Below are positions 9,403 through 52,416 of a DNA stretch of 64,000 bases, piece by piece. The translations under genes and the position numbers were made by a program. This DNA is from Cordylochernes scorpioides (lineage: Eukaryota; Arthropoda; Arachnida; Pseudoscorpiones; Chernetidae). Position 1 is the stretch's first letter; each line of letters opens with the position of its first letter. The stretch lies in contig CP092879.1 of NCBI GenBank assembly GCA_030710605.1, positions 43,526,344-43,590,343 of the forward strand. The letters are read 5' to 3'. The notes below the pieces were generated by a model that saw only the letters and a list, made by a program, of their open reading frames with translations, did not search any database and had not been told where the DNA came from.

Positions 9403-9744
9403 TCAAAGATTAAGATTATTGAAATGGTTTAACAGATCCTTCACCTCTTTTTCCATGCTATCCAATTGAGTTTGATATTCCTCAGGTAAATTCATTAAAC
9501 CAGATCCACTATTCCCAAGGTTTTCTTGAGGTATATCCAAGATGCCACTTAGCACTTCCTGTAATGTTGTTTTTAGCCTATTCAATTTGTTGAATCTTTC
9601 AATTAATTTATCTCTTTCTTCTTTTGGAATCTGATTTGACTGAGCGAGATTTGTTCTTTGAATAATATCATCCACTTGTTGCAGAATAGGGAAAAAATCG
9701 TTAATTTCTTCTATATTTACTCTCTTATCTGAAGAGTGTGCCAT
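9403..9744 (-). CDS. Family-1a small helical protein, copy 1
   Basis: 113 aa, intronless reading frame, function not recognised. No signal peptide or membrane segment, so cytosolic or nuclear. Almost all predicted helix: an N-terminal helix containing LQQVDDIIQRTNL, a short turn at NQIPKEERD, a long helix (LIERFNKLNRLKTTLQEVLSGIL), a loop PQENLGNSG, and a C-terminal helix EYQTQLDSMEKEVKDLL with heptad-like spacing suggesting coiled-coil pairing. Start chosen at ATGGCACAC, preceded by TTCAGATCAAG as in the other copies. It differs from the copy at 29176-29517 by about 9 replacement and 5 silent changes (hand count), so constraint looks weak to moderate. Next gene upstream is the homologous family-1b frame at 10043-10384, 298 bp away. 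Confidence 0.75.
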   Translation of the reverse strand: MAHSSDKRVNIEEINDFFPILQQVDDIIQRTNLAQSNQIPKEERDKLIERFNKLNRLKTTLQEVLSGILDIPQENLGNSGSGLMNLPEEYQTQLDSMEKEVKDLLNHFNNLNL

Positions 9745-9866
9745 AGTGTCTTGATCTGAATGATATCAAAATAACGATCTGATATTGTAAATGTTGAACC
9801 TCTTATAAAAGGTAATTTTATTTGTATATATAGGAATATATAATATTCTACCTTTGCATATATTTG
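9745..9866 (-). promoter_or_regulatory. Family-1a promoter, copy 1
   Basis: On the minus strand: distal ATATATGCAAAGG (9852-9863), proximal variant TATATACAAAT (about 9821-9831, G to A in the octamer-like core), TATA box TTTTATAAGA (9801-9810), about 57 bp to the ATG. Spacing proximal site to TATA box matches families 2 and 3. Confidence 0.65.
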
Positions 9867-10042
9867 TGAATAAATGTAATATTAAAAATAATAATGAAAT
9901 TATGAAAATATGTAAATTGTGTATATTGTCGTTTGTACATTATACATTTATCTACAAGTTTTTCATCTCAATTTATAACTTTTATATTCAAATAAACAAT
10001 TGTTCGAAACAGACTTCTGAAAAAGATTCAAAGAATCAATCT

Positions 10043-10384
10043 TCAAATATTTAGTTCATCAAGACCATTCAATAGGTTATCCATGTTTGTTTCCGTGTTG
10101 CTCAATTCAATCTCATAGTCATTAAGTAAACTTGTTAATTTTGGTGTAAGATTTCCAGAGTTTTCTTGAGGCGAGTCTAAAAGAGCGCTTGACATTCTCT
10201 GCATCTATCCTTTCAGAAAATTCATTTCACTTGAACATTCACTTATTCGTTTTCGCACATCTGCTGGAATTTGATTTAATTGAGGTAGATTTAACCTTTG
10301 GATATTTCGATCTACTCGTTGCATTATGTTACGAAATTGATCTATTAGTTGTGTTTGGTTTGAATGGGCAGAAGGTTGCGTCAT
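10043..10384 (-). pseudogene. Family-1b small helical protein, TAG at codon 60 (copy 1)
   Basis: 342 bp, exactly 113 codons plus stop, same length as family 1a. Clear homology with 1a: NQIP followed by R..I.E...E.N.LK, then MQ..S..LLDSPQEN and a C-terminal helix ending LLNGLDELNI. Starts ATGACGCAACCT at 10384. The only interruption is TAG at 10207-10205 (codon 60); the remaining 53 codons stay open. The second copy (29817-30158) has the same TAG and is otherwise open; a fragment at 50611-50822 has TCG there. Hand count between the two full copies is about 11 replacement to 3 silent changes, as expected for sequence without protein constraint. Confidence 0.75.
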
Positions 10385-10560
10385 ATTATCTTGATATGTT
10401 TGATCTAAAGAATGGACAATTTGCGTTCTTCTCCCAATATGCTTGGTCTCTTTTTGATAATTATAGGTTTGATAGAATTTATATTATCTGCATATAGAGG
10501 AATGTAACACACATTAAATATTTGTTTTGCATATATATTTTAAATATCACAAGTTGGATA
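10385..10560 (-). promoter_or_regulatory. Family-1b promoter, degenerate
   Basis: Distal TATATGCAAAAC (minus strand, about 10528-10542) is kept; the proximal site reads TATATGCAGAT (about 10486-10497) and the TATA position reads CTATCAAA. Weaker than the other promoters, in keeping with the stop in the gene. Confidence 0.45.
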
Positions 10561-10631
10561 ATCACTTGGAATTATGAAATTATCAAAAAAAAATAAGTGA
10601 ATCGTGAGGCGAAGAGTTTATTGTATATATT

Positions 10632-10876
10632 AAGAAAAAAGCATCTCCTTATCGTGCAACTGAAAGTTGCTGATGGCTTGCGCCATCTATTGGAATAAAT
10701 ATAAACTATTCTCGTTGATTTCTTTTTTTCCAGAATGAAATAATTAATCAAAATAGGTGTTTGGCCAATTCTGGAATAATTAGAAATCAACGAGAATAGT
10801 TGACATTTATTCCAATATATGGCGCAAGCCCTCAGCAACTTTCAGTTGCACGATAAGGAGATGACTTTTTCTTAAT
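10632..10876. mobile_element. Foldback/MITE, about 105-bp inverted arms (copy 1)
   Basis: Left arm (AAAGCATCTCCTTATCGTGC...) and right arm (...GCACGATAAGGAGATGACTTT) are inverted copies around a roughly 35-bp centre; both carry ATTCTCGTTGATTTC inside. No coding capacity. A second copy at 30418-30670 lies at the equivalent place in the next unit, so it was carried along by the duplication. Confidence 0.8.
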
Positions 10877-10941
10877 TTATGCACCTTATTCCAGTACAAT
10901 ATCACATTTGTACTCTTTTTTCATATATATATATATATATA

Positions 10942-11310
10942 TGTTGTGATGTAGTCGATCCGGTAGGATGACGTAGTGTGGTTGGTTAAATGCAGTCTTT
11001 GTGGCCTCAATGTTCAGAGTGGTTTCAGGCGTGAATGTATTGCACCAAAGAACGAGACATTTTGGATGTCACCACAGAGATGGCGAGAGAGTAATGCCGA
11101 CACTGGTCAAGGCAGTTCTGTCAATCATCGTGTTTCGAAGCGGACTGATCTGTTTGAGCAAGAAGTGGGCACACCTGGTATCCCGACATGTTTTTCGGAG
11201 ACCTTCCTTCTGGATGGCGCCGACTGTAAATCAATCTAGCTTTATTATTTTGTTTTACATTACATGGTGGCCGCAATGGCGATTTGAATTGTTTTTACAG
11301 TTTTGTTTAT
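10942..11310. repeat. Dispersed repeat, possible solo LTR (copy 1)
   Basis: Begins TGTTGTGATGTAGTCGATCC right after a (TA)n run and is matched by 30795-31165. GC-richer than its flanks. Open frames inside (for example 11001-11408) are not kept in the second copy. The 3' boundary (near TTTTTACA at about 11301) is uncertain. Confidence 0.5.
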
Positions 11311-11382
11311 TATATTATATATATAAAAAAATTCCATCTATATTACATATGGTATATATTAGAATATATTGCAACATATATA

Positions 11383-11559
11383 TGTGGTATAATAAGGTGG
11401 GAAGATGAATAATATCCCGAGGTGTTAACTGACGGGCTCCAGTGGTCGCCCCCTTGGAAAGTCGCTGGTATCATAAGTGACCGGATTATACATTCCCGTC
11501 TCTCTCTGGGTTGTCTGTAGGTTGGCATTATTATTCCTGGAAGAGTATTTATTATGACA
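11383..11559. mobile_element. 177-bp solo-LTR-like insertion
   Basis: TGTGGTATAATAAGG ... ATTATGACA, with TG/CA termini, sitting inside an ATATATA tract. The paralogous locus near 31215-31230 reads straight through ATATATATATGTGG with no insert, so the boundaries are supported by an empty site. It has no coding capacity. Confidence 0.7.
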
Positions 11560-11759
11560 TATATATATATATGTGGTTATTTGTGATATTGGTTATAGTT
11601 ATGTAGTGAGTGGTAAGGACACACAGGAGACAGGATCCAGAAACAAACAAACAAAAAAAAACACTAAACATGCCCATTATTGATATGATATATAATGTGT
11701 TTTTAATAAAACTAAAGGTTTTGTATCTCCAAACCTTAAATATAGTATTTATCAAGTAT

Positions 11760-12399
11760 CAAGCTCAACGCTTCTAAAATATGCCTATTGTTTCATTATT
11801 ATTCATTTTGTACTCCTGTAGAAAGGCGGAAATTCCCGAAAGCTTGAGAATGCAATAATAAAAATTGAGAAAGAAACATCTCTAGAAACCTCTTGCATTA
11901 TTTAAATAATATCCAGGAGATTTACATCTATTGTCCAAATGGTAAATGCAAAATGTTCCTCTAGTAGAACAATATCTAGGCTTTATTTAATAGGCGATTA
12001 AAGAAACATTGACTGCAAATGTGAAAAAAAATAAAAATAACCATATTTTATGAAATATCTTGACTAAAATATATTTTGTAAAGTATTGACGAAACTATCA
12101 ATATTAATTGCTTGAATAAATACATAAATCTAATTATTTTTTTTTTTAGTTTTTACTATTTAGGAATTATCGTTTAGATTTAAAGATTGTATTATCTCAT
12201 TAAATATGAAAAAAAAAATTATTTTTTGCTTATCCCTAGTACACGCGGTACATTCCATGCTAATCATGGTGGGTAGTAGTAGGTGACTGTTTTTACTGTA
12301 AGTGCACCACATGTCTACACATGTGAAAATAATTTCGAATATATACTTACAAATGTGCCAGATCACCGTTTGGTTACACAATGACATTTATTGTAGGCA
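11760..12399. other. AT-rich intergenic DNA
   Basis: I see no gene. CCCGAAAGCTTGAGAATG with a following AATAAAAA at about 11833-11866 resembles the 3' end of a Penelope-like insert but is too short to call. The short open frame at 12160-12387 (minus) has no family features. Confidence 0.4.
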
Positions 12400-12565
12400 C
12401 ACGAGATAATCAAGTGTGAAAATTCGAAACTATTAAAGACGCCTTTGATTTTTCATGAAATTAAACAATTTCTACTGCCCTTACTGCAATGGAAAAATTA
12501 AAAAGAGGGCTATAATAGTTTCGAATTTCCATAACAGGTGGCGCGCTAATGCATCATAATACTCA
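12400..12565. mobile_element. MITE, GCGC-CATCTGTTATC family (copy 1)
   Basis: Inverted AATTCGAAACTATTA / TAATAGTTTCGAATT arms around a TTTCTACTGCCCTTACTGCA centre, ending AACAGGTGGCGCGCTAATGC. Related copies at 12785-12990, 23205-23345, 38183-39296 and 51414-51545. Confidence 0.65.
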
Positions 12566-12784
12566 AGTGTCAACAAAATTGCTTCTGTCTCCTTAAAGAA
12601 AAACAAAAGACGATGGCGACATTAAAGACTTGTCACTTCCTTAAATTCTGTCCATGAGTATATATTCTTCCCCTCACATCAAAATGGATAAGAGAACAAA
12701 TATAAATTTAAATAGTAAATTTGGTAAATCTCAATTAAAAACCTACCAAATAATTTCAAAAGTGTGTATGATAAAGATACTCTA

Positions 12785-12990
12785 ATATCAAAATTCGAAA
12801 CTATTATAGACGCGTATGATTCTTTTTAGAATAAAACAATTTCTACTTCCCTTACTGCAATAGAAAAATTAATGGGAGGGCCTTAATATTTCCATTGGTA
12901 GATATTGTTTTATTTTAAAAAGAATCATACGCGCCTATAATAGTTTCGAAATTTGATAACAGATGGCGCGTTAATGCATCATACTCTAAT
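12785..12990. mobile_element. MITE, same family (copy 2)
   Basis: Arms AAAATTCGAAACTATTATAG and its inverse near 12938-12957, with GATTCTTTTTAGAATAAAAC inside, right end GATAACAGATGGCGCGTTAATGC. No coding capacity. Confidence 0.7.
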
Positions 12991-13317
12991 ATTTGAAAAT
13001 CTTTAAATCTTCAATAAATTTTAATACCATTTAAATTCTTTTGAATAAGATTCCCCTCGTCCAGGCCAATCTTCAACGAACATTGTTTAAAAAAAAAACT
13101 GCAGAGAAAATCTAACTTTGAATAAAAAAATAAACATTTTACAGTTAGCATTCTATCTGAGGAGACAAATATATCAATTAAGTTATTCCAATCTTTAAAT
13201 AAAATTTTAGACAAGAATAAAATGTGTTCAAGGTTGGCAACAAAAACCTTAGGAACAGTAAGAAAATCGATCAAATATATGCCAATATATATATTCAGAA
13301 ACAGCTGAAAAGTACCT

Positions 13318-13983
13318 CTTTCCAGTACCTCTCTGCACCTTGGAAGACCTTTAAAAGTTCTCACAGAGTACAGGCAGTTGTAGTCGAGGCAGAGTGGAAA
13401 GCTTGGGAATGTCCACACACACAAAACGAAGAGACACAGCTGTAGTAGGAAAGTTCCATGAACAGATAGGAGTCGAGCTAAGAGCAAGATGGAGATATAG
13501 AGTTCTTACTGTTTACATGGTCGATGAGGTGGACCTGACTGCAACCAACAAGGGCTCACGCCGACGGTGAAGTGACTGACTGTCTAACTAACTAAGCTCG
13601 GCTAAAACCGAGGTTTTTATATACCATTCCCGAGGAGGGGGGGGGGGGGGGGGGGGGGGGGTTGGAGATGTCTGAGAATGTGGACTTTGGACGTCTGCGG
13701 CATTCTGCACCCTTAGATCTTAATGGCGACGGGCTGCCACATTCCTTTAGGGTTGTCTCGATTTTAGACGTTTTTGAACTTCTCAATCTTGCTTTAACTC
13801 AGCTCTTAATCTATTACATAGTTTTATTTATTCATCCTCAGTTTGTACAAAGCACATTACATATGGTGATGCAATGACACATGTCAATCATGCATATAAT
13901 TATTTATAGATGTGGTTCTATATACAACATGACAATCTTGTTATAAGTATTATACAATATAGGGTTGTTGGTTTAAATTATCA
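13318..13983 (-). repeat. Left LTR of element C (outer end truncated)
   Basis: Matches the right LTR from CCAGTACCTCTCTGCACC onward. Contains a run of 35 G at 13637-13671, against 11 G at the same place in the right LTR (18129-18139). The length may be a slippage or assembly matter. Confidence 0.8.
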
Positions 13984-13999
13984 TAGATGACCCCCGGGA

Positions 14000-15700
14000 G
14001 TGAAAGGGTTTATCCGGGTTTAAATGGGTAAAGCCTCTCTAACACAGGTAAGTAATTAAAATTTATTTTAATTAATTTAAACTGCGAGGGTTAAAAAGGG
14101 CGATAAAAAGATGTTTTGTTTGGATATATCTGAAAATTATAAAAATATAAATTATGTTTAATATTTATAAGTTATGATATTCATTATAAAAGAGAGCTTT
14201 AGATAAAACCTTTGTGTGATAAAAAAGTGATGATAAAAATTAAAATGATGTTCTAAGAGATTGTTGGCGGGCGTTGGAAAGGGTTAGAGGTTAAAGAATA
14301 TGCAATTGCAAGTATTACACAGACGATCAAATACTTAGGTCCAGTGCAAAGCGAGGATATAGACTTGTGCGTCTTCCTAGGCAATGTTTCACCTGTGATC
14401 CTGTATAAGGTTACAGTGCTTTGTCACAATTGTAGGGTTATTGGGTTGAAAAGTTGTTGAAGAAAAAGTTGTTCATTAATATGATTGAAAGGGGTGAAAT
14501 GGAGAATCATGCTAAAAGTAGAATTGTTGTAACGACAGTAGGTGATCTGACTTGACTTTAAAATCAATGGTTGATTGTGATCCGCTAGAGCTGAAAAAAT
14601 TGTGAGTTGTGAACGCTTTGTGTTTGCGTTGGTGATTATGCTCTAGGGATGATTGAAATAAACTTTTGAAACGTGTTCAGGCCAGAAGTTGGGATTTGTA
14701 AATCTGGGGAACTGTGTTCCAATAGTTTGTTGAAATTATGAAATAAAAAAAAAATTGTCAAGCAGTACTGTCGTTTTTCTATGTTGATGTGAAGCATTAG
14801 CTGAGAAAGATAGTAGTGAAGTACACTGAAGTGGTTAGAGAAATAGATTTTTGTAAACGATTGTTGTATGCCCGAAAGTTAATGATAACATAGTCATTTT
14901 ATATAAAGGTATAAAAACAAATATAAAATGAATAAAAATATAGAAATGTCATTGTGGTTGCATAAAGTTTAAGTGGATAAAATCAAACAATCAATATATA
15001 AAAGTAATAATATTGAAGAATTAAAGTGATTTTTGACAACAAATAAATCTTTTGTAATACTAAAATAATATTATGAAAAATAAAAGTAAAATTGATTTAA
15101 AAAAATAATATTGGATTAAAAACTTGTGATTATATAATTGATAGGTAAAAATAAAATATATATTTTATACAAAAACAGAATATAATTAAAGATTATTACA
15201 ATGAGTAGATGAAGGTTTAGTATTTCTTGTTTCATGTAGTAAAATGTGTGGAATAAAAGAATGTATAGGACACGGCCTTAATTTATTGGAGGCGAGTAAG
15301 GGGGGAGGGTGTCAATGCATTTAGTGACGCGGCATGGTCCCGAGTTGTTTAGTCTATAAATCCGGTATTTTTATGACTCTCTGTCTGGGAATTTGTGAAA
15401 TTCTCGAGGAAATATAGATGGCTGATGTGAAACACATGGCGGTCATTCTGATAGCGGATTTTTAGTTGACAGCTTTGCGGGCGGGGAGGGAGGCCGTTGT
15501 ATATTTTTGAAGGGGGGGATATGGAGGTTATCTACAGCACGTGTTTTAAATTCTTTCTTCTCTAGTTAGGATCTGGTGGGTTCAAAGAAATCTTTATATT
15601 GTATGAAATAGAGTAAGTGAGTAAGTAATACAGATCCAAATGGGTTGTTGTAGAGTATGTAGGTAGAAAAGGTTTGAATGTAACGGGAAATTTTCTGGCC
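14000..15700. other. Interior of element C, no surviving gene
   Basis: AT-rich, with many short stops in all frames; homologous to 33665-35350 of element D. I see no coding sequence. Confidence 0.5.
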
Positions 15701-15701
15701 G

Positions 15702-16424
15702 CTACTTGAGGTTTGTTTTAAAACGATCGATGTTAAATAAATCTGGATTTAAATGTAGGAATGGCTGGGAAGTTTGAGGCGGTATAATTCGGAATAGTTG
15801 CGTCTCGAAGATATCTGGAGTCAAATGTTTATCTTTTTTATGCTTATTTTGGGTACGAGAGCGTGCTATCTCTCCAGCTCTAGTTATTTCGGGGTATGGG
15901 TTAAGATGAGCTTTTAGATCTGGGGGGACAACATTGAACATTAAATAGATAGGTGGAAAACTTGTGACAGCGGGGTGTGTTATTAGAAATTTGCGGATTT
16001 TTCTGAGGTAAAAGCGGGCGCTCTGTCAGATAACAGATGTTTTGGAAATCCTTGTTGTAGTACAGTTTTGAGGGTTTGCATGTACGTTAGAGTACTGGTT
16101 TACTGGTTAAACTCTCTTTGAGAGTGGTGTAAGTTTGTTGGCAGTTTTATGGTCTATTTGAAAGATGTAGTTTTCTCGGTGTTCGTAAGTGTTGTGTTTC
16201 GACGTTGTTGTGGACTTAGTAAAAATGTTATTCAATGATGTCAGGTTTAGATGTGAGTAAAAGTGCGACTTTCGACGTGGACTAGCTTTGGGGTGAGAAG
16301 TGTCACAGGCATGTAGGCGTCTTTGTGGCCTGTTAAGTGAGAAAAATTGTGATTCGCTGTGTGACACGAGTGAGTGAATTGAATGGAAAGGTGTCACGTG
16401 AAGTCTTTGTCTTTGGTACAGCAT
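15702..16424 (-). pseudogene. Integrase C-terminal scrap of element C
   Basis: Minus-strand reading of 15702-15941 (..NPYPEITRAGEIARSRTQNKHKKDK..) lines up with residues about 1025-1065 of the element B polyprotein (..NTPYPDIDKARKIAHTRTQNKH..), followed by a piece like B's downstream spacer (HLNPDLFNIDRF). 16107-16424 is open but shows no recognisable domain; its counterpart in D is 35615-35836. Everything upstream of this scrap (protease, RT, RNase H) is gone. Confidence 0.65.
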
Positions 16425-18461: not shown

Positions 18462-18469
18462 TATATATA

Positions 18470-18908: not shown

Positions 18909-20402
18909 CACTTGTGTCCAAAAAATAAGAAACTTTTGTTTTTTAATGATATGTTTTAAAATATACACCGCTAAAAGCTAAAAAGTAATTTATTTAGGTA
19001 TTTCAAGTCGTAGAATTTATTTATCGCAACTATTCGATTCGGTAAAATTGAAAATATACAAATTTTTTGCTTGTCTTTATAAGGGTGCTATTTGGCGTGT
19101 CGTTTATCCCATCTAAGAATTGTCCAATTATAATTTTATTTAATCCTTAGTTAATTATGAGTTTACGAAAAATTTTAGCAGATGATTTAAAATGGAGAGC
19201 TGTTGGAAGAATGGAGGCAGGGCAATCACAAGTTGAAGTAGCAAAATGGCCAAATGTGAATAAATCTGTGGTCAGAAAAATATGGAAACAGTTCATTGAG
19301 ACAGGAACCATCAAAAGAAAAGAAGGTTCTGGTAGAAAAAGAAAAACAGCTACCTCTGAAGACCGTTATCTGGTCGTAACTGCCAAGCGCCATAGGGAGA
19401 TGACAGCTATCCAACTCTCTAATGAACTCTCAAGTGCTACTGGAACGAGAATTTCAAGACAAACTGTTTACCGAAGGCTTCACGAAGGTGTTCTTTATGC
19501 AAGACGACCAATGGTCTGTATCCCTTTAACCTCTGCTCACAGGAGAGCCCGCTTGAATTGGTGCTTGGAACATCACGCCTGGACTCATGATCAGTGGGCC
19601 AATGTTCTCTTCAGTGAGGAGTCAAGATTTAGTTTAAACACAGATTCTCGACGAGTTTTCATCTGGAGGGAGCCTGGAACCCGCTATCATCCCAGTAACA
19701 TCAGGGAAATAGACAGTTTTAGAGGGGGCAGTCTCTTAGTCTGGGCTGGCATCAGTTCTAGCAGACGCACACCCCTCCACATTTTTTCTGGGGGCACTTT
19801 AACTGCCCAAAGGTACAGGGACGAGATCCTTGAGCCCTATCTAAGACCTTATAGAGATAAAATTGGTCACAATTTAATTTTTATGGACGATAATGCTCGT
19901 CCGCATAGGGCTAGGCTAGTCAAAATGAATATCTCCAGAGTAAGAATATTCGAAGGATGGATTGGCCAGCCAGATCTCCGGACCTGAATTCAATAGAGCA
20001 TGTATGGGAAGCTCTAGGGAGGCGTATTAGAGCTCGTCACCCCTCTCCCAGAACCCTCGTTGAGCTAATAACTGCTCTATTGGAGGAGTGGGTTTACTAC
20101 CCCTGGACCTCCTCCAAAGCCTGGGAAACAGTATGAGGGCTCGCTGTTAGACCTTGATAGCTGTTAGAGGTGATCATACTCCCTATTGATATCTTATTTC
20201 TTTAAGATCTGGAACTTTAGCTTTGGGTATGTGGGTAATAATTTGCATATTTCATAATTTCAAATATTTTTTAAATTTTCATATAGCTAGTCAAATTCTA
20301 CATAGTTTAAACTATTTGTATACTAAATTTTATATTTGTTAATAAATTATCTTTTGAGAAATTTCAATATTAGTTAAGTTTCTTATTTTTTGGACACCAG
20401 TG
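18909..20402 (+). mobile_element. Tc1/mariner transposon, inactive
   Basis: Inverted termini CACTTGTGTCCAAAAAATAA (left, from 18909) and its complement at 20383-20402, flanked by TA on both sides (18907-18908 and 20403-20404). Length 1494 bp with one transposase gene on the + strand. Typical cut-and-paste element in size and target. Confidence 0.93.
19157..20136 (+). pseudogene. Tc1/mariner transposase, frameshifted, first catalytic Asp replaced
   Basis: N-terminal helix-turn-helix DNA-binding part (about residues 1-110, with SVVRKIWKQF and the basic GSGRKRKT linker), then the DDE domain. The first catalytic motif reads LFSEESRF where the family has an Asp before ESRF, so the first acidic residue is Glu; the second is intact (FMDDNARPHRA). 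The frame shifts around 19945-19960, and the third motif (SPDLNSIEHVWEALGRR) is read in the next frame up to about 20090, with a further shift before the stop region. Both lesions would disable it. Confidence 0.93.
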
Positions 20403-22639: not shown

Positions 22640-22840
22640 TATATGTTCCGTTTTGTTATTTGTGTCCGATTCATTTTTTTCCTAAAGAGATTTGTATTAT
22701 AAATTTTCTGATGTGAATTCGTTCAGTTTATATTATGTGAGATTCAGGAAAAAAAACTGCTAGAAAGAGATTTTATAAAAGTTAATTGATTTGCATATAT
22801 AAAAGGTAATTATTATTATTATTTTGCATATATTTTTTAA
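22640..22840 (-). promoter_or_regulatory. Family-3 promoter
   Basis: Minus strand: distal ATATATGCAAAATAA (about 22819-22833), proximal TATATGCAAAT (22790-22800), TATA box TTTTATAAAA (22771-22780). The stretch from the proximal site to the TATA box is almost the same as in family 2 (GCAAATCAATTAACTTTTAT against GCAAATAAATTAATTCTTTT). The GATA palindrome is absent. Confidence 0.7.
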
Positions 22841-23870: not shown

Positions 23871-24209
23871 TTAAATCCCAATGTTCGGATCAAAGAGTTT
23901 TAAAAAATTATCAAGGCTGATTTCCAATTTTAACAGTTCATTTTGGATTTTAGTTAAAAAATATATTTCTCGGAGTTTTAACTTAATAGAGTTATCCTCG
24001 AGATAATTGCATACAGTTTCTAAGCAGTCCTTTAACAAGAAATTTTCATCTGCACTTGCAATTATTTTCTTTTCACTTATTGAAATCTTATCCAAATTCT
24101 GATTATTTATTTTAATTACCCTCTTAATATGTTGATCGATTTGGTTCGATAAATCAAGAATTTCTAATATCAATTCTAATTGTCTCATTCTATTAAATGT
24201 CTCACTCCT
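23871..24209 (-). pseudogene. Family-2 small helical protein, start codon lost
   Basis: 112 codons plus stop, same length and about 90% the same protein as the intact gene at 52078-52416, but the start codon reads AGG (24209-24207). The next ATG is at residue 8 (24188), giving a possible 105-aa product. The frame is otherwise unbroken through the conserved middle (IDQHIKRV.KINNQNLDKIS, LEDNSIKLKLRE) to the end DPNIGI. Calling it dead is an inference; use of the internal ATG would keep nearly the whole protein. Confidence 0.7.
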
Positions 24210-24372
24210 ATTTGCTTGATCTGAAAGATATCAAAAGGATGTTATCTTAGCTTTGAATTCCTCACGCCTTTTTGTATTTAAGCAATAATAGAAAATGGTT
24301 GAAACTTTTTAAAAGAGTTAATTTATTTGCATATAAATATTATCAGATAATTCATATATTTGCATAAAAATA
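24210..24372 (-). promoter_or_regulatory. Family-2 promoter, TATA box damaged
   Basis: Proximal TATATGCAAAT (24325-24335), GATA palindrome TTATCTGATAA (24340-24350) and distal TATGCAAAT (about 24357-24365) are kept, while the TATA position reads CTTTTTAAAAG (24305-24315). Confidence 0.6.
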
Positions 24373-26861: not shown

Positions 26862-26920
26862 CTAAAAAAGTTAATTTATTTGCATATATATTATCAGATA
26901 ATTCATTTTTTGCATAAATA
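26862..26920 (-). promoter_or_regulatory. Orphan family-2 promoter
   Basis: Proximal TATATGCAAAT (26878-26890), GATA palindrome (26891-26902) and distal TATGCAAAA (about 26909-26918) are present, but a deletion ending near 26861 has removed the TATA box and the gene, joining the promoter to the tail of the LINE relic. Confidence 0.6.
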
Positions 26921-27690: not shown

Positions 27691-28289
27691 TGAAAAATGT
27701 AAAATTATTTTGATTTGAAAGGCATATATCTAGTGAATATATGTTTCAATTTTAAAACGGAAGTGTTCAAATACATTTGAAAAAGAGCCTAATTATCAAC
27801 GGAATTATGTTGATGTGACTGAAGACAACAGTAAATACAAAAAAGGACAATGAATATAGCGTCATTAAAATATTATATTTTCACGCAACATTATGATGAA
27901 TAGCTTAATATAAAATTTGAGCAATTATATGAACAGAAAATAGTTTAAAATGGAAATTCACATCGGAAAGACGGCCAGACGACGTAACAGGAGACAGTAA
28001 TCATTCAAAGAAGCCCTTCCACCCACAGCGACATCCGGCGTGAATCAGCGCAGTCTGCTGGCCAGTTGTCTTTTCCTTTATCCTCTTAATATGTTTTATA
28101 AAGTTAGTTCAAAGGAGGTCTATACCCTCTCTATTGTCCTATTCAATGGTAAGTCTAAAATCCTTAAAACAGCCTACAATTAATCATAACTGCGGGAGTT
28201 ATTTTTATACCGAACTTCGCATCATTGTTTTATGAAGCAATTACCAGTATTCGAACTTTTAAATATAAATATTATATATATTCTTCCTT
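27691..28289. repeat. Array spacer with empty site for element A
   Basis: Matches 2711-3238 joined to 8493-8519. At about 28255-28275 the sequence CTTTTAAATATAAATATT runs uninterrupted, showing the pre-insertion state of element A's target. Confidence 0.75.
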
Positions 28290-28710
28290 AAGGAAAAGGC
28301 ACCTAGGTTGACCGTTATTGTGATCAAGGTGAACAGTAATATTTGATCTGCGCATTGGACAAGACACCACCACCATCGATCCAGAAAAGGACATCCATAC
28401 GGACAAGATACCTCAGTTAGCCGGTATTGTGATCAGGGTGTACGAACCTATCTGATCTGCGCAATGGACAAGACAACACCACCATCAATCCAGAAAAGGA
28501 CATCCATATGGACAAGGGACCTCAGTTGGCCGGTGTTGTGATCAGGGTGCACGGAAATATCTAGATTTCCATGGACAAGACACCACCACCACCTTCAATC
28601 CAGAAAAGGACATCCATACAGACAAGGCACATCAGTTAGCCGGTATTGTGATCAGGGTGCATGGGCCGATCTGATCTGTTCCATGGACAAGAAACCACCA
28701 CCACATATAT
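28290..28710. repeat. Minisatellite, four units (array 2)
   Basis: Same unit as 8520-8935 with small differences. Units are not in a constant reading frame relative to one another. Confidence 0.88.
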
Positions 28711-29517: not shown

Positions 29518-29645
29518 AGTTTCTTGATCTGAATGATTTCAAAATAACGATCTGTTATTGTAAATGTTGAAGCTCTTATAAAAGGTAATTTTATTTGTAT
29601 ATATAGGAATATATAATATTCTACTTTTTGCATATATTTGTGATA
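29518..29645 (-). promoter_or_regulatory. Family-1a promoter, copy 2
   Basis: Distal CAAATATATGCAAAAAG (29625-29640), proximal variant TATATACAAAT (about 29593-29605), TATA box CTTTTATAAG (29574-29583), 57 bp from the ATG. Near the start codon is ATTCAGATCAAG, a motif shared with family 2 (TTTCAGGTCAAG), which could be a 3' splice site of a 5'UTR intron. Confidence 0.65.
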
Positions 29646-29816: not shown

Positions 29817-30158
29817 TCAAATATTTAGTTCATCAAGATCATTCAATAGGTTATCCATGTTTGTTTCCGTGTTGCTCAATTCAGTCTTATAGTCATTAAG
29901 TAAACTTGTTAATTTTGGTGTAAGATTTCCAGAGTTTTCTTGAGGCGAGTCTAAAAGAGTACTTAACATTCTCTGCATCTATCCTTTCAGAAAATTCATT
30001 TCACTTGAACGTTCACTTATTCGTTTTCTCACATCTGCTGGAATTTGATTTGATTGAAGTAGATATAACCTTTGGATATTTCGATCTACTCGTTTCATTA
30101 TGTTACGAAATTCATCTATTAGTTGTGTTTGGTTTGAATGAGCAGAAGGTTGCGTCAT
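29817..30158 (-). pseudogene. Family-1b small helical protein, TAG at codon 60 (copy 2)
   Basis: 113 codons plus stop, start ATGACGCAACCT at 30158. The same single TAG (codon 60) as copy 1; everything else is open. About 14 differences from copy 1, spread on both sides of the stop and mostly amino-acid changing. Either a pseudogene born before the duplication or a stop that is read through. Confidence 0.75.
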
Positions 30159-30315
30159 ATTATCTTGATATGTTTGATCTAAAGAAAGGACAATTTGCGT
30201 TCTTCTCCCAATATGCTTGGTCTCTTTTGATAATTATAGGTTTGATAGAATTTATTTTATTCGCATATAGAGGAATGTAACATTATATATTTGTTTTGCA
30301 TATATATTTTAAATA
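30159..30315 (-). promoter_or_regulatory. Family-1b promoter, degenerate (copy 2)
   Basis: Distal TATATGCAAAAC (about 30292-30305), proximal TATATGCGAAT (about 30268-30279), TATA position CTATCAAA. Confidence 0.45.
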
Positions 30316-32370: not shown

Positions 32371-32480
32371 AATTTGTAAAAATTCTAAATTTTCTTGAAA
32401 ATATTGAAAATTTAATCGATTGTTAAATCCTGATGTTCGGATCAAAGAGGTTTAAAAATCATCAAGGCTTGTTTCCAATT

Positions 32481-32759
32481 TTAACATTTCGTTTTGGATT
32501 TTGGTTTAAAAAATATTTCTCTGAGTTTTAACTTAATAGAAATATCCTCGAGATAACTGGATACGGTTTCTAAGTAGTTCTTCAACAATAATTTTTCATT
32601 TGCACTTTCAATTATTTGCTTCTCACTTAGTGAAATCACAATCAAATCTTGATTATTTATTTTCATTACCCTCTTAATATGTTGATCGATTTGGGTCGAT
32701 AAATCAAGAAATCCTGATATCAATTCTAATTGTCTCATTTTATCAAATTTCTCACTCAT
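32481..32759 (-). pseudogene. Family-2 small helical protein, C-terminus frameshifted
   Basis: Starts at ATGAGTGAG (32759-32757) and follows the family sequence to LKLREIFF, then a small indel near 32505-32512 shifts the frame and ends the protein at 92 aa (..KPKSKTKC), about 20 residues short. Its promoter is split: TATA box and proximal octamer-like site are here, but the GATA palindrome and distal site are now at 45100-45135, beyond 12.2 kb of inserted elements. Confidence 0.7.
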
Positions 32760-44588: not shown

Positions 44589-45095
44589 TGTAGTATATTT
44601 TGAGTTATATGGTTCACAACCTTCTTCTGATATTCATTATATAACCCCATATCTATATATTAAAATATGTATTGAACAATGGAAGTGACAATAAAACAAA
44701 GAGGAGGTAGACCAGAGACGACAAAGACCAGACGAAAAACAACCTGGCGCCAGAAAGTGACGTGATCACAGTAGCCAATCAGGAATAGCCACATATGCGG
44801 GCGTCCAGAGTTATATAAAGAGCCCAGAAATGGGACAGAGGCAGTTGTTTAGTTAGTTGTTTCCAGAGCGACGCCGTTATACGGTCAGTGGGATCTCTCA
44901 TCCCCCTTCTATCCGCGATGTAGGCTTTGGGCATCCGTGACGCCCGTGGTTCGACTGCCTTCGTCCGTGGTCTACCTCTACCTTCTTGGAGCTACCATCT
45001 AGACCTGCCTCTGTCTCTTGCTGTCCCAGTGCGGGAATCCCATCACGCACCCACTACCACGACTGCCCAGCACATTCCACATCGGGATTACTACA
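44589..45095 (+). repeat. Right (3') LTR of element E
   Basis: 507 bp, ending ACTACA before TATATATATATATGATCAG, which is the continuation of the family-2 promoter interrupted at 32895. Confidence 0.85.
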
Positions 45096-45140
45096 TATAT
45101 ATATATATGATCAGATAATTCATTTTTTTGCATAAATATT
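45096..45140 (-). promoter_or_regulatory. Distal half of the split family-2 promoter
   Basis: TA tract, GATA palindrome remnant (ATCAGATAATTC on +) and distal TATGCAAAAAAAT (about 45123-45135). Joins logically to 32820-32895. Confidence 0.6.
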
Positions 45141-45424
45141 TATATTTTAAAAATCACAATTTTGAACTTGAAATTTATTTTTTGAAACATTTTCATTTCA
45201 ATAAATTCTTCAGAATTTAATAAAAGGTTTTATTAAGAATCCTATTGCGCAAGGGTTTTAATATTCTATAATATTAATAGCAATTTTTTTGAATCCAAAT
45301 ATTAAGTTAAATATATATATTTTTTTCATTACAAGAAGACCTATTGACGCAATTATTTCATGTGTTCAAATATATTATTGCCAGACTAAATATTGTATAA
45401 ATTTAATTGGTAAAGCAAATTACA

Positions 45425-45800
45425 AACAATATTTGGTCTCTCAATATACAATTAGAATTTTCATTAAAAAAATTAAAAGAACTCTACCTGTCACTGTGGC
45501 AAGGAAATCAAGGACTTGTGACACCTACTGTTTGAATGCCAACTCTTCTTTTTCGCTAGACAACAGAGAGTAAACAATGTTGTAGATCTATATGAATTTG
45601 AAAATATTAAAAATAACTATCTCAGATTTAACCGCTTTTGTAAATATATTTTTATGATTATCTTTCTTACTTTGAAGGATAAGGTTCCTAATATATCCTA
45701 TTGTTCATATTTTTTTCAAATTTATTTTCTTGTATGTTTATAACTGCTTCTGTTTAAAAATATAAATCGACGCCATTATTCCAAGCCGAGATATCGCGTT
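45425..45800 (+). mobile_element. LINE C-terminus relic in array unit
   Basis: Corresponds to 2340-2710; frame altered around the knuckle. Part of the amplified spacer, not a new insertion. Confidence 0.55.
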
Positions 45801-46429
45801 TTGTGAGTTAAAATAAAATTTGAAAAAATAAAATATTATGAAAATGAAATGCATATATCTAGTGAATATATGTTTCAATTTTCAAATGGAAGTGTTCAAG
45901 TACATTTAAAAAGAATCTAATTCTAAATGAAATTTTGTTGATGACTAAAGACAACAGTAAATACAAAAAAGGACAATAAATATAGAGTTATTAAAATATT
46001 CGATATTTTGACGTTAACATTCTGGTTAATAGCTTCATCTTATTTTAAGCAATTATGCCTATATAAACATAAAATAGTTGAAAATGGTAATTCACTTCGG
46101 AACATCGGCCATACGGCGTAACAGGGGACAGTAATAATTCGAAGACGCCCTTTCACCCTCGGCGACCACCGGCGGGAATTAGCAAAGCGTAGTCTGCTGA
46201 CCAGTTTTATTTTCCTTTGTCCTTTTGATATGTTTTATAAAATTAGTTCAAAGGAGATCTATACCCTCTCTATTGTCCTAATCAGTGATCTGTCTAAAAT
46301 CCTTAAAACAGCCTACAAAGAACCATCACTGCGGAATTTTTTTATACCCAACTTCGCTTGTGAATCATTTACCAGTTTTTTCTTTACAGTATTCAGATTT
46401 TCAAATATAAATATTATATATATTCTTCT

Positions 46430-46700
46430 TCACGGAAAAGGCACCTTGGTTGACCGGTATTGTGATCATGTGCACAGAAAGATTTGACCGGTCCATGGAC
46501 AAGACACCACCACCACCATCTATCCAGAAAAGGACATCCATACGGACGAGGCACGTCAGTAAGCCGGTATTGTGATCAGGGTGCACGGACCTATCTGCTC
46601 AATGGACAAAACACCACCATCAAGAAGAGGACATCCATTCAGAAAAGGCACCACAGTTGGCCGGTCTTTCCATGGACAAGACACCATCACCAAATATATA
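46430..46700. repeat. Minisatellite, about three units (array 3)
   Basis: Shorter version of the arrays at 8520 and 28290, with internal deletions in the second and third units. Confidence 0.82.
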
Positions 46701-46872
46701 TTCTTCCTTAAAGTTTATCATATTTATTTGTTTAAATGGCAATTAGCTTAGGTTATTTCCTTTGAGAATTTAATAAAAATATGTATTCAAATGTTGAGCT
46801 ATGTGATATATTAATTTTGTTCAACAAATTTTATCATTTCCCTATATTCTTGGTTTAGAAATTTTAAAGATC

Positions 46873-46895
46873 AGAGAGAGAGAGAGAGAGAGAAG
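46873..46895. repeat. (AG)n microsatellite
   Basis: About eleven AG units. Sits in an insertion (about 46795-46960) not found in the matching spacers of the other units. Confidence 0.8.
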
Positions 46896-47356
46896 ATTAT
46901 TTCTATTATATAAAATAATTCTAGAGTAGCAAAAAAATCGTGCACTTTATGTGTTGAACATAATAAACTATCAACACACACAACACTGGGCAGAAAATGA
47001 ATTATTATAAACAGATGACAAAATAACATAATGAAATACCTATTTAAATGTACATATTATTTAGAAAATGATTCAAATTTCTAAAGAAATGTCAAATTCA
47101 ATTATCATTTTTGTATAATAGAAAATGTGAAAATTAGCTTAAATTTAAAAATTCCGAAATTTCACATTAATTATGGAAACATATATTATTTTAAATGTAT
47201 ATATTATATTTAAATGAAAACAAATATCAAAATTGCCGAACAATAACCTTATAATTTATAAATTCTCAAACAATCATTAAAACAAACATTATATGTTTTT
47301 AATTGGCTTCTATTTTCTAGACAACTGCTGGAAAAATTTAAAGGATTATTTTATCT

Positions 47357-47665
47357 TCAAAGATTAAAATTATTGAATTGGTTTAACAGTTCCTTCACCT
47401 CTTTTTCCTTGCTATCCAATTGAGTTAGATATTCCTTCAGGTTTTCTTGAGGAATATCATAAATGCCACTTAACACTTCCTGTAATGTTGTTTTTATGCT
47501 ATTCATTTTGATGAATCTTCCAATTAATTTATCTCTTTCTTCTTTTGGAATCTGATTTGACTGAGCGATATTTTTTCTTTGAATAATATCTTCCACTTGT
47601 TGCAAAATTATGAAAATATCGTTAATCTCTTCTATTTTTACTCTCTTATCTGAAGACTGCGCCAT
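47357..47665 (-). CDS. Family-1a small helical protein, copy 3, shorter loop
   Basis: 102 aa from ATGGCGCAG (47665). An in-frame ATG 8 codons further up exists, but the shared start context (GATCAAG then ATGGC) favours this one. Same fold outline as the other copies; the loop after PQENL lacks the GNSGS-LMNLPE segment (11-12 residues), joining NL directly to KEYLTQLDSKEKEVKELL. The frame is intact despite the in-frame deletion and several substitutions (V10K, T31K). Function not recognised. Confidence 0.7.
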   Translation of the reverse strand: MAQSSDKRVKIEEINDIFIILQQVEDIIQRKNIAQSNQIPKEERDKLIGRFIKMNSIKTTLQEVLSGIYDIPQENLKEYLTQLDSKEKEVKELLNQFNNFNL

Positions 47666-47790
47666 ATTTCTTGATCTGAATGATTTCAAAATAACGATTT
47701 GTTATTGTAAATGTTGAAGCTCTTATAAAGAGTAATTTATTTGTATATATAGGAATATAAAATATTCTACTTTTGGCATACATTTTTAAA
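47666..47790 (-). promoter_or_regulatory. Family-1a promoter, copy 3
   Basis: TATA box CTTTATAAGA (about 47720-47729), proximal variant TATATACAAAT (about 47738-47750), distal site decayed to TGTATGCCAAA (about 47773-47783). Confidence 0.55.
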
Positions 47791-48105
47791 TAAATGTTAT
47801 ATTAAAAAATAATAATAAAATTTTGAAAATATGTAACTTATGTATATTTTCAAGTAGCTCTACAATCCAGGGAAGCTCCATGGAAAACCTGTCAATCATC
47901 GCTGGACTCAGCTATGAGGTGACCAGATGTTCCTGAAATCTTATCGTCAGATAAGAAACGAGACGTCGCGGTGGTCAAACACTTGTTATTATTATCTTGA
48001 TATAAGTTGTTTTCATATTTAAAATAAACTGATTCTCTTTCCAAATATATATTGTATATAATTTTATTGGAGGTCTTAAAAAGGTGAATACTACATAATT
48101 TGGCT

Positions 48106-48780
48106 TTGCTTTATTTATCTCCGCGACATATTTTGGCGGAGTGGATGGGTAACCTAGCGGAACTTCGAAGAAGCCGACGTCTACATGGATGTGAACCAAT
48201 TCTTGAATTTTTTACACACCGAAGAAAAATAAAATTGAAGAAAACCAGAGACAGTTAAGGGATCATACCTATCGTGTAAGCGCCAACGAGATCATCTTCT
48301 TTTCTGGTGATTGAAGTATGAAACCTGGATAGAGGTTGAAGGAGTACTAGAGAGTGTCGAAATACAACAGATGGGACGATACCATGAAGCTTGCCAACGT
48401 CGTCTTTGACTTGAACGGGACTGTTGAAAAGTGGCTTGATAATAATGAAGAATCACTCAACTCGTGGAGAAGCTTTGAAGACGCATTCCACAGTGTATTC
48501 GGACTGCAGGAGGATTCGGCTCAACGCGCCGAAGAAGTTTTTAAAGTCAAGAGCACAGAAGGCCGAGGAATCCATTGAGTCATACATCCAGGAGATTCTT
48601 AGCTTCTGCCACCAGGTGAACTCTTGCATGGAAGAAGTTTTGATGGTTGCTCACATTATAAAGGGAATTTCTGAGGACACATACCAGGTATTGGTGTGGA
48701 AAGACATACAGACGGTAGATGAAATTCACCATTTTGCCGTCATCTGACAACCATCAAGCAGCAAAGGATCGACTGTGGGA
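48106..48780 (+). pseudogene. Gag relic of an element A relative
   Basis: Plus-strand sequence starting with the LTR end CTTTATTTATCTCCGCGACA (48109-48128), then a gag resembling element A: YNRWDDTMKLANVVF, NNEESLNSWRSFEDAF, SYIQEILSFCHQVN, HIIKGISEDTYQVLV. Frame shifts near 48540-48560 and stops near 48746; no zinc knuckle and no pol. An independent, older insertion in the opposite orientation to A. Confidence 0.85.
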
Positions 48781-49026
48781 TCAGCCGTGAAGGATCTGTT
48801 TCCTCTGTAATAGAAGCGCAAATATTCCAATTCCGCGCCTTGTTGGATAATTAATGAAAAATAGTATTTGCAGAATTACAAATTGAAATTTGGAGAGAGA
48901 TAACTAAATATAATATATTAAAAATAAAGTGTACATTAAAAGTTTTAAAATTATAGATTTACCTTTACATATTTATACAGAGTTAAAGGAAGTCGTTTAT
49001 ATGTGTAGCTACATTAATTAATATAC

Positions 49027-49225
49027 AAACACAGCTTTATTAAGACCGCCAGTCTTATACAGTTCACTACAGTAAAGAAGCATAGATGGAGCTCCTATAC
49101 TCCAGACAGCGCACATCCCAACAAAAGCCTCCAGGTCAGACGCATGTCTAGTGGCCACAGATTCGACCATGCATACGTCAAGGTTAGCGTATCACCGAAA
49201 AGGCGAGTATGGAATCAGTCGCGTT
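49027..49225 (-). repeat. ~190-bp dispersed repeat with AATAAAG end (copy 1)
   Basis: Matches 49905-50085: AGGTTAGCGTATCACYGAAAA, GCATAGATGGAGCTCCTATA and a minus-strand AATAAAG near the end. Could be a short retroposon; no coding frame seen. Confidence 0.5.
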
Positions 49226-49388
49226 CTAGTCTTCGCTTTCCTTATCCAATATGGATTGCAAGCTAGCAAGTGCATCCAATTCATTGGTTGTAAGATTTCT
49301 TGTGTAGTCTTGTCTTTTTACTTCTGATAGCATTTTCCAATGAAGGTTTCAAGATATCAAATAATTGTTTCTTTACTTCTGTTTCCAT
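49226..49388 (-). pseudogene. Short broken reading frame, unrecognised
   Basis: Minus strand starts METEVKKQLFDILKPSLEN, then after a 1-nt frame change continues as SEVKRQDYTRNLTTNELDAL and stops at 49226. About 54 codons in total. Helical and charged like the array families, but no octamer-like promoter lies upstream and I do not recognise it. Confidence 0.3.
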
Positions 49389-49904
49389 GATTTTCCTAAA
49401 ATTTGATTTACCTAAAAAAAATTAATTTACCTCTCCAAAATGTTTTACATGCTTTACTATACATTCTCAAGTTTCCGAATTATCTTAATATATTTCAATA
49501 ATATTACATTTTCATTTGTATTTTGATAAAATTGAAAATATCTTTGATATAAAATCAAAGCTAAATTTGTTTTATTTCAAGCTAGATAAACGTAAATCTC
49601 AATTACTTGTAATTTAGAAGTTCACGTTAAAGTCTTCATTGGTTTGAAATAAAGTTTGTCTGATTTAGATTATTTTTATCATTGCCGAAGTTAAATGATA
49701 TTCTACAGAGAGCAGATATAGAAAAAATATTTTGTTTGCTAAATTTCACTTTAACATTATAAATATCTACAGAATGTATACAATAAATTTCTTTAGAATT
49801 ATGCTAATGAACCTGTTCATATAATTCTGAGGGGTTAAAGTTTGGAAATTCTAGTTATATGATTCAATAATTTAGAGCTATTAAAAAACACATACACACA
49901 TACA

Positions 49905-50085
49905 ACTTTATTTAGATCACCGATCTTATACAGATTTACCACAGGAAGGAAGCATAGATGGAGCTCCTATACTCCAGGCAGCGTAGAACCCAACAACAGC
50001 CTTCATAGCCAACATAGGTCCAGCGGCCAAAGATTCCACCGTGCATACATCAAGGTTAGCGTATCACTGAAAAGTATGAAATCAA
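49905..50085 (-). repeat. ~190-bp dispersed repeat (copy 2)
   Basis: See 49027-49225; roughly 80% alike by eye. Confidence 0.5.
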
Positions 50086-50605
50086 TTTTTTTCTAATAAA
50101 TAAAACTACGAAAAATCACCATTAGCGACACAATTATGATCATTCTTAAATTAGTGAAAAAGCTTAAAGAGAGAAATTTATTCATTAATTCAAAAATTAA
50201 ACTTTGCAATAAATAAAATATTTAAACTATTCAATTATCAAAATTCTTTAAAATATACATTTGAATATATACATACCGTATATGTCCATTTTTCAAGAGA
50301 AGCAAAATATTTAACTTACTATATACATATCTAAATTCAAATTTAGGAAATTTTCTTTAAAATTAATTTATAAAATCTCCTATATTATGTTGAGAATTTA
50401 AACATTATAAAATTCTCTCTACATTTATGAACTAAATTTAGAATTTTTATATTGAATTCTAAAAAATCATCAATACTATATAGAGCCATTTTTTCCTTTG
50501 AGTGCTACTTTTTATAAATACTGTAAATTTAGTTTCTCGTAGTTCTATGCTTGATTGGCTACTATTTATTTAAAACACACTTCTTAACAATAGTCTCAAA
50601 GGATT
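50086..50605. other. AT-rich intergenic DNA
   Basis: Nothing recognised. Confidence 0.4.
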
Positions 50606-50610
50606 AATCT

Positions 50611-50822
50611 TCAAATATTTAGTTCATCAAGATCATTTAATAAGGCGTCCATGTTTTTTTCTGTGTTGCTCAATTCAGTCTTAAAGTCATTAAGTAAACT
50701 TGTTAGATTTGATGTAAGATTTCCAGAGATTTCTTGAGGCAAGTCTAAAAGAGCACTTAACATTCTCTGCATCGATCTTTTCAAAAAAAATCATTTTACT
50801 TGAAGATTCATTTCTTCGTTTA
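50611..50822 (-). pseudogene. Family-1b fragment
   Basis: Matches the C-terminal 60% of the 1b frame, ending in the same LNDLDELNI-type terminus. At the position of the TAG of the other copies it has TCG, but a 1-nt gain in the adjacent T-run breaks the frame, and homology stops near 50822. Useful as outgroup: the TAG is derived or polymorphic among copies. Confidence 0.65.
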
Positions 50823-52070
50823 CTATCTAATTATTTAAGTATGGATTGCTCTATTTTCAGAACAAATATATACATATATATATATATTTGTGTGTGTGTG
50901 TGTTTGCGAATTAAATTTTATCTAACAAAAAATTTTCAATTAAAACCTTCCAATGTTCCTGAAAAATTAGAGGATTCAACACCTATCAAAATGATATTTT
51001 TTTACTGAAGTTATTAATCTTTTGTACAGGATTCACATATACCGAACAGAAAGATAACCATACTAAATAATATCTGCAAATGTATAGCTTACCAAAGCTT
51101 ACCATATGCTTAAATTTAATATATTTACCTTTATATGAGTGTACATATATTTTATAAAAGGTAAATTGTTATATTTTATTTTAAAATTTAGCTTCATATT
51201 AATGAACGTTACTATTTTGATATTTACATAATATTTGCATATCATTGTCTCTTCACAATTAAATGGTGTGTAAACAAGGATTATTTTGAACCATATGCAA
51301 CAAAACAGATTCACTAATTTTAAAGATAATTGAAAGGAACATATCAATGCAATAGAGGTTTAAATTTCACAAAAAAAATTTACTAAAAAAAAGTTGTATC
51401 AAGTAAATATATTAACATGATGCATTAGCGCTCCATCTGTTAATAATATCTGAAACTATTCATCACTGATGAACCAGGCCTTCCTATTATTTTATCATTG
51501 TGTTAGGGCAGTAAAAATTGTTTTATTTATGAAATGCGTTTAAAATAGTTTAATTGTAAAAATATAGTATATATAGTTCGTATTTTATATGTTGCCACAA
51601 TAAAAAAATATCATAAAATTGTGCTCAAATTATTTCATAGTTTATTTTATAATTAAATATATGAGTGAATGGTTTCATTTATTTATCAGTAAATAACTGT
51701 GTTTTCATGAAATTTCAATATTAAGACATTTGTAAATCCGGGTGAACCGACGAGTGGGTTTAAACAGTCGTAGGTTTTCTATAGTAAAAACTACTTCAAA
51801 TATAAATATTTTTATTACAAAATACAAAATTGAAAAGAATTGCTTTAATAAAAATAGGATATATTTCAATACGATAGGCAAATTTTGTATAAGCAACGTT
51901 GTTACCATTCTTTGTTAGAACAGCTTTACAATTATTATTTAGAATGTAATTAAATATCAAGAAATACTAACAGGAATATTTGTACACAATTTTTAAAATA
52001 ATTTTAAAATCATAATAAAATAGAAATATGGTAAAAATTCTAAATTTTCTTGAAACGGTTGAAAATTTAA
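50823..52070. other. AT-rich spacer, one MITE
   Basis: Contains a TG/TA microsatellite (50868-50902) and a MITE copy (51414-51545, GATGCATTAGCGCTCCATCTG..). From about 51330 on it matches 23080-23860. Short open frames here look accidental. Confidence 0.45.
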
Positions 52071-52077
52071 ACGATTG

Positions 52078-52416
52078 TTAAATCCCAATGTTCGGATCAA
52101 AGAGTTTTAAAAAATCATCAAGGCTCATTTCCAATTTTAACAGTTCGTTTTGGATTTTAGTTAAGAAAAATATTTCTCTGAGTTTTAACTTAATAGAGTT
52201 ATCCTCGAGATAATTGCATACAGTTTCTAAGCAGTCCTTCAACAATAATTTTTCATCTGCACTTGCAATTATTTTCTTTTCACTTATTGAAATCTTATCC
52301 AAATTCTGATTATTTATTTTCATTACCCTCTTAATATGTTGATCGATTTGGGTCGATAAATTAAGAATTCCTGATATCAATTCTAATTGTCTCTTTCTAT
52401 TAAATCGCTCACTCAT
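52078..52416 (-). CDS. Family-2 small helical protein, intact copy
   Basis: 112 aa, the only family-2 copy that keeps start, frame and stop together. Charged N-terminus (MSERFNRKRQLELISG), helix IDQHIKRVMKI, connecting SISEKKIIASADEK, long helix LLLKDCLETVCNYLED, KLKLREIFFLTKIQNELLKL, and C-terminal DDFLKLFDPNIGI. Strongly helical with heptad-like hydrophobics; no signal peptide or membrane span. An in-frame TGA 10 codons upstream fixes the start at 52416. It resembles family 1 only in length and in the ID..I.R helix near residue 25-30. Function not recognised. Confidence 0.75.
   Translation of the reverse strand: MSERFNRKRQLELISGILNLSTQIDQHIKRVMKINNQNLDKISISEKKIIASADEKLLLKDCLETVCNYLEDNSIKLKLREIFFLTKIQNELLKLEMSLDDFLKLFDPNIGI

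Follow-up and report, generated by a model that had tools for sequence, protein, structure and literature searches.

The DNA analysed here (the window) is a stretch of 64 000 nucleotides from the pseudoscorpion Cordylochernes scorpioides, C17:43526344-43590343, C17 being one of the 24 contigs of a genome of 2.62 Gb. It carries several families of very small genes, denoted 1a, 1b, 2 and 3, whose frames had been pointed out in an earlier note made from the sequence alone. A tblastn search of the named frames against the window returned 12 copies or remnants (three of 1a, three of 1b, five of family 2 and one of family 3), all on the minus strand, in line with the at least ten counted there; the five frames listed as intact do each run from ATG to stop (Table 1). 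The fixed order 2-1a-1b described in the note is seen three times, but two family 2 copies (52078 and 62684) and the single family 3 copy stand outside it.

The window is part of a larger tandem array of ~275 kb on C17. Genome searches gave at least 19 matches for 1a, at least 23 for family 2 and at least 4 for family 3 (lower bounds, with 1b and split pseudogenes counted in), all of them within C17:43.42-43.69 Mb, a single stretch of 265 kb. The array DNA that was analysed comprised C17:43326344-43630343 and C17:43676344-43696343 (324 kb in total). It is mostly made of long blocks with ~98% identity, e.g. 405.9-411.2 versus 456.3-461.6 kb and 423.9-456.2 versus 553.6-586.0 kb, and contains further duplicates with 89 to 95% identity. 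From low to high coordinate, units 1 and 2 read 5, 4, 3, 2, 1a, 1b, 2, 1a-short, 1b fragment, 2; families 4 and 5, both left of the window, were brought up by listing the frames that lie behind octamers (see below). Later units hold parts of that order, without families 4 and 5.

Homologous copies are clustered in this one locus, intact and pseudogenised ones side by side. Genome-wide, 1a is open in eight of nine copies, among them all three in the window; one of the eight lacks the normal stop and extends to 109 amino acids, and the ninth copy is frameshifted. Family 1b, which is homologous to 1a as had been proposed (39-41% identity), comprises six full-length copies and three fragments, none of them intact; a TAG at codon 60 is shared by four copies and a TAA at codon 29 by two. 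Family 2 has 14 copies: 2 intact and mutually identical, 1 open without ATG and 11 broken. All four genome copies of family 3 are open, three ending after residue 106 and the window copy at residue 110. Block duplication, together with this mixture of intact and decayed copies, bears out the note's description of a birth-and-death array.

The window also encodes reverse-transcriptase, integrase and Tc-type transposase domains (Pfam), which identify the DNA as eukaryotic and presumably represent gypsy, jockey and Tc1 elements. The small frames could then be passengers, belonging to a transposon or an endogenous virus in a repeat-rich locus, and one promoter remnant does continue into reverse-transcriptase-like sequence. 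However, a mobile element would be dispersed, whereas the matches to 1a, 2 and 3 are confined to the one 265-kb stretch; none of seven window proteins has a Pfam match, and 1a has neither a relative in viral contigs nor a viral fold match. Since no second locus was found for families 1, 2 and 3, a distribution unlike that of a transposon (the earlier note had named a match to a known transposon as evidence against its reading), transposon cargo is unlikely, and we regard the passenger explanation as a whole as very improbable.

Table 1. Gene copies and promoter elements (window coordinates, except where C17 is given)
Feature	Position	Strand	State or remarks
Family 1a copy A, 113 aa	9403..9744	-	intact, ATG to stop
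Family 1a copy B, 113 aa	29176..29517	-	intact, ATG to stop
Family 1a short form, 102 aa	47357..47665	-	intact, ATG to stop; 33 bases shorter, in frame
Family 1b	10043..10384	-	pseudogene, stop at codon 60
Family 1b	29817..30158	-	pseudogene, stop at codon 60 as in 10043..10384 copy
Family 1b	50611..50790	-	3' fragment only
Family 2, 112 aa	52078..52416	-	intact, ATG to stop; 339 bases identical to C17:43448633-43448971 copy
Family 2	23871..24209	-	frame open, AGG in place of start codon
Family 2	32420..32759	-	frameshifted, frame closes early
Family 2	1453..1792	-	diverged pseudogene, several stops and frameshifts; upper bound approximate
Family 2	62684..63022	-	diverged pseudogene; upper bound approximate
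Family 3, 110 aa	22307..22639	-	open, ATG to stop
Family 4, 118 aa	C17:43415246 and 43465402	-	both open (324 kb)
Family 5, 130 aa	C17:43409325 and 43459720	-	both open (324 kb)
Promoter module, intact family 2 gene	52513..52575	-	octamers 52566-52575 and 52533-52542, spacing 33 bp, then TTTTATAAA
Promoter module, family 3	22772..22832	-	octamers 22823-22832 and 22790-22799, spacing 33 bp, then TTTTATAAA
Octamer TATATGCAAA, 1a copy A	9853..9862	-	118 bases upstream; then degenerate octamer and TTTTATAAG
Octamer, 1a copy B	29627..29636	-	upstream
Octamer, 1b	10526..10535	-	upstream
Octamer, 1b	30295..30304	-	upstream
Octamer, family 2	24326..24335	-	upstream; partner at 33 bp, TATA box degenerate
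Octamer, family 2 pseudogene	1908..1917	-	upstream; partner at 30 bp
Octamer, family 2 pseudogene	63138..63147	-	upstream; partner at 33 bp
Orphaned family 2-type promoter remnant	26879..26888	-	followed by reverse-transcriptase-like sequence, no gene

Coding constraint on the small genes

Family 1a is a genuine protein-coding gene under purifying selection. The ratio of nonsynonymous to synonymous rates (omega, or dN/dS), which the earlier note had proposed to compute, is 0.35 and not 1 (likelihood ratio 7.3, P = 0.007; 6 distinct sequences from 8 in-frame copies, two identical ones dropped, tree fixed by hand), with pairwise values of 0.11 to 0.57 for non-identical pairs. Tree length for the same nine copies is 0.137 in the coding part versus 0.317 in the flanks. 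The note's 'rapidly evolving' does not hold for 1a, whose rate of change is less than half that of the flanks; a lack of constraint is apparent only in the decaying copies and perhaps in family 3. The flanks contain 19 distinct gap intervals, 17 of which are not multiples of three; the coding part has two gaps, one of 33 bases in frame and one of a single base, which belongs to the broken copy. When neutral decay was simulated on the flank tree, at least eight of nine copies stayed open in none of 3000 runs with frameshifts and in 6 of 3000 with stops only.

These results bear on the possibility that the array is simply dying, i.e. that one or two once-functional genes are in relaxed decay and that recent block duplication has amplified them. 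Such a scenario would fit the loss of 1b in nine of nine copies or pieces, the 12 of 14 family 2 copies that are not intact, a family 3 without clear constraint and the recent origin of some open copies, duplicates that differ little. It fits poorly with the long and short forms of 1a, whose flanks differ by 17-24% and whose frames are open all the same at the omega given above. It also sits badly with families 4 and 5: no difference separates the two copies of family 4, and just two silent changes separate those of family 5, in surrounding blocks that differ by 1.4-2.2%, which suggests constraint on both families, few changes being available. Moreover, open relatives of family 5 are found at C1:5970859 (39% identity) and at C12:22410369 and C12:22441873 (35%). 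We therefore consider a merely dying array unlikely. In family 2, the intact gene and the AGG-start copy differ by proportions of 0.049 at nonsynonymous sites (pN) and 0.073 at synonymous sites (pS).

Because family 5 has open relatives on three other chromosomes (C1, C12 and C2), the wider family extends beyond the array. The C2 relatives are weaker (expectation values, E, of 8e-5 and 0.007) and occupy four positions, arranged as mirrored pairs ~5.9 Mb apart: 168897770 and 168903786 on the plus strand versus 174792482 and 174798357 on the minus strand. This arrangement may stem from an inverted duplication or from the assembly itself.

Octamers upstream of the genes

The octamer TATATGCAAA occurs 12 times in the window, always on the minus strand, against 0.65 expected from shuffles, and 11 of these occurrences have a family member no more than 200 bases away. 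In the 324 kb there are 38 on the minus and 4 on the plus strand; 34 of the 38 are ahead of a family member, dead or alive (manual count). Copies that derive from duplication are not independent in these counts. Octamers upstream of the genes are above chance and on the coding strand: among 196 frames of at least 75 amino acids, 27 have ATGCAAA within 300 bases upstream, namely 18 of 24 family frames versus 9 of 172 others.

Paired octamers were defined as having at most one mismatch across both. Pairs 31-35 bp apart number 12 on the minus strand and 1 on the plus strand of the 324 kb, and 11 of the 12 precede families 2, 3 or 4; in ten Markov sequences of equal length there were three in total. 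The spacing on the minus strand is 33 bp in nine pairs, 31 bp in two and 34 bp in one that has no gene behind it. Further minus-strand pairs are spaced by 30 bp (five, all ahead of family 2 copies or a remnant), by 39 bp (two places, ahead of 1b) and by 29 bp (one place, without a gene). Families 2, 3 and 4 have in common paired octamers (ATGCAAA/ATGCAAAT) at 30-33 bp, and 1a has the same layout, with a degenerate second octamer ~32 bp away as read by inspection. TATAAA stands 11-13 bases past the second octamer in the intact family 2 gene and in family 3; TTTATAA was not found at the promoter position in families 4, 5 and 1b. The note's idea of one promoter type holds as far as octamers are common and pairs at 30-33 bp recur in families 2, 3 and 4, but spacing and TATA box differ in 1b and 5. 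A Tc-type transposase frame (window 19157-19987) lies near the 34-bp pair (C17:43546625).

Could the frames be single exons of larger spliced genes, with the TTCAG that lies a few bases upstream of the ATG of 1a and 2 as splice acceptor? In 1a and most of the aligned family 2 copies, TTCAG-ATCAAG directly precedes the ATG. However, in 1a, 2 and 3 the octamers and TATA boxes precede the ATG by just 65-190 bases (65-140 bases from TATA box to ATG), each frame has an ATG and a stop codon of its own, and families 3, 4 and 5 lack the TTCAG-ATCAAG stretch, so that we find this explanation quite improbable.

Elsewhere the octamer is an established POU site, as in the Caenorhabditis elegans aqp-8 promoter with CEH-6 (PMC2841177); the octamer ATTTGCAT/ATGCAAAT is present in both promoters. 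By analogy, the octamers of the array may act as POU sites. They differ from the aqp-8 case in that three families carry two octamers at 30-33 bp and that the factor is putative here.

The 33-bp arrangement ATGCAAA-N26-ATGCAAAT (pattern ATGCAAAN{26}ATGCAAAT) has 781 matches in the genome and the reversed pattern 18, although the latter contains CG and is too low as a yardstick. Octamer frequencies in the background of the array region predict 19 pairs (plus strand) or 36 (left 79 kb, both strands), and 238 if those of the array's octamer-rich minus strand are used. Nine of the 781 pairs fall in the 324 kb, all on the minus strand and ahead of families 2, 3 and 4. The 100 matches listed (C1 and part of C2) are clustered: after close ones are collapsed to give 95, 20 neighbours lie within 200 kb versus 4.2 expected on assumed chromosome lengths. 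Seven of the 100 lie in two clusters of less than 1 kb, on C1 and C2, which are likely short tandem repeats, and no family 5 relative on C1 or C2 has one of the listed matches next to it. The matches include a divergent pair at C1:183688439(-)/183688820(+). Genome-wide, the pairs may represent promoters, or else fragments of a repeat or of duplicated blocks. That the 33-bp pair marks a genome-wide programme, in which hundreds of promoters, many of them serving short orphan genes of one exon, would be switched on together by a POU factor acting as a spaced dimer, seems to us doubtful.

The encoded proteins and their kinship

The helical make-up proposed in the note agrees with the structure predicted for 1a, a three-helix bundle (residues 11-30, 41-69 and 88-110; five sequences; mean predicted local distance difference test score, pLDDT, 73.5). 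The protein has no cysteine and, by eye, no signal-like N-terminus, features that point to an intracellular protein. The note knew of no named family of this kind, and none emerged from the libraries searched: none of nine proteins (seven of them from the window) reached a curated Pfam cut-off, the PDB sequence search with 1a gave six rows with a best E of 0.1, and Foldseek gave no confident match for the 1a model (best E 1.0 in PDB and 0.18 among viral folds). A protein database search confirmed no relative among 18 candidates for family 2 and 4 for 1a, and none of the five pattern matches to 1a in viral contigs was confirmed. In the parts of the literature accessible to us, nothing turned up on such a protein family or promoter.

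Two resemblances were considered. The 14 rows of PDB sequence matches for family 5, headed by designed pentatricopeptide repeats (best E 2e-7, no single stretch passing alone), were judged spurious. We take family 1 to resemble the Mediator subunit MED9 in size and helical layout; no Mediator family was present among the Pfam matches of the nine proteins up to E 10 (filters drop most above 0.1), and at most a weak, remote homology may exist.

Profile comparison of families 1 and 2 gave E 0.006 over 102 columns, though with a low HHalign probability (6.4%), and none of 60 column shuffles did as well; on these sequence profiles the two are probably homologous. Family 3 was matched against family 1 as well by 1 of 60 shuffles, so that a kinship in protein sequence is hinted at, and against family 2, for which no kinship by protein sequence was found, by 41 of 60. 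Families 4 and 5 are homologues of one another, at 29% over 107 residues.

Origin and possible role of the array

We judge it probable that the locus holds a eukaryotic tandem gene family, partly decayed, whose members share promoter elements. At least one of its families, 1a, is under purifying selection. Tandem lineage-specific gene families with birth-and-death evolution are a general class, and the array resembles them in block duplication, intact and dead copies, confinement to one locus and shared promoter elements. It differs in that its proteins show no signal peptide and no known domain and that its promoter elements are common to families whose proteins can hardly be aligned.

The genes would be single-exon, encode small proteins of 102-130 amino acids with no obvious signal peptide (1a being predicted as a three-helix coiled-coil bundle) and each have a promoter of their own, with upstream octamers that in families 2, 3 and 4 are paired at 30-33 bp, a distance of about three helical turns. 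Blocks of tens of kilobases would have been duplicated repeatedly, probably by unequal exchange, adding copies. Most copies of 1b and 2 would then have decayed, with 1a kept, probably because several doses of the protein are useful, and families 4 and 5 apparently kept too. Bound by a POU factor, the octamers would restrict expression to a single cell type. The presumably intracellular proteins may work by self-association or as small adaptors, a role that for 1a we put forward tentatively, as a possibility well short of even.

Several observations weigh against a partly decayed gene family with shared promoter elements. (i) Dead copies are many, comprising all nine of 1b and the 12 of 14 family 2 copies without an intact frame. 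(ii) No single fixed octamer-octamer-TATA spacing is common to every family, and any such rule fails for 1b and 5: in family 5 a single exact octamer is accompanied at most, in one copy, by a mismatched partner at 27 bp; two copies of 1b have their pairs at 39 bp; the second octamer of 1a is mismatched; no exact octamer lies within 300 bases of three 1a copies (43486987 and two short ones; 8 of 9 tested); and in 4, 5 and several family 2 copies TATAAA is either degenerate or missing. (iii) Kinship of families 4/5 to 1/2 was not established (HHalign E 0.065 and 0.28; column shuffles did as well in 0 of 60 against family 1 and in 44 of 60 against family 2). (iv) The 1a model has a predicted template modelling score (pTM) of 0.55, and that of family 3 is poor (pLDDT 50). 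(v) In family 3, pN is about equal to pS in four of six pairs and lower in two, with only 2-4 silent changes per pair; lacking clear constraint, its status therefore rests on four open frames and the promoter.

The array is of a familiar type, its proteins are unrecognised in what was searched, and the shared promoter is the unusual feature and the one most worth following. The locus yields a selected protein family unknown to the searched libraries and a promoter signature that revealed two more families. With a short signature for unannotated small genes, one can test whether sets of co-regulated orphan genes lie hidden in large, repeat-rich animal genomes, missed by annotation that relies on homology.

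Three minor features of the surroundings were recorded. A 109-bp unit forms tandem arrays at window 8522-8934 and 28285-28703, at the edge of the duplicated 1a/1b block. On the plus strand of C17:43336344-43346343, two similar, strongly hydrophobic frames (142 and 102 amino acids) start 4 kb apart at 43339140 and 43343212 and are possibly a tandem pair of membrane-protein exons. Finally, identical 944-bp direct repeats (window 53852-54795 and 61503-62446) stand on either side of a minus-strand frame of 1359 amino acids with reverse transcriptase and integrase domains (56559-60638); this is a very recent insertion of a long terminal repeat retrotransposon into the array.

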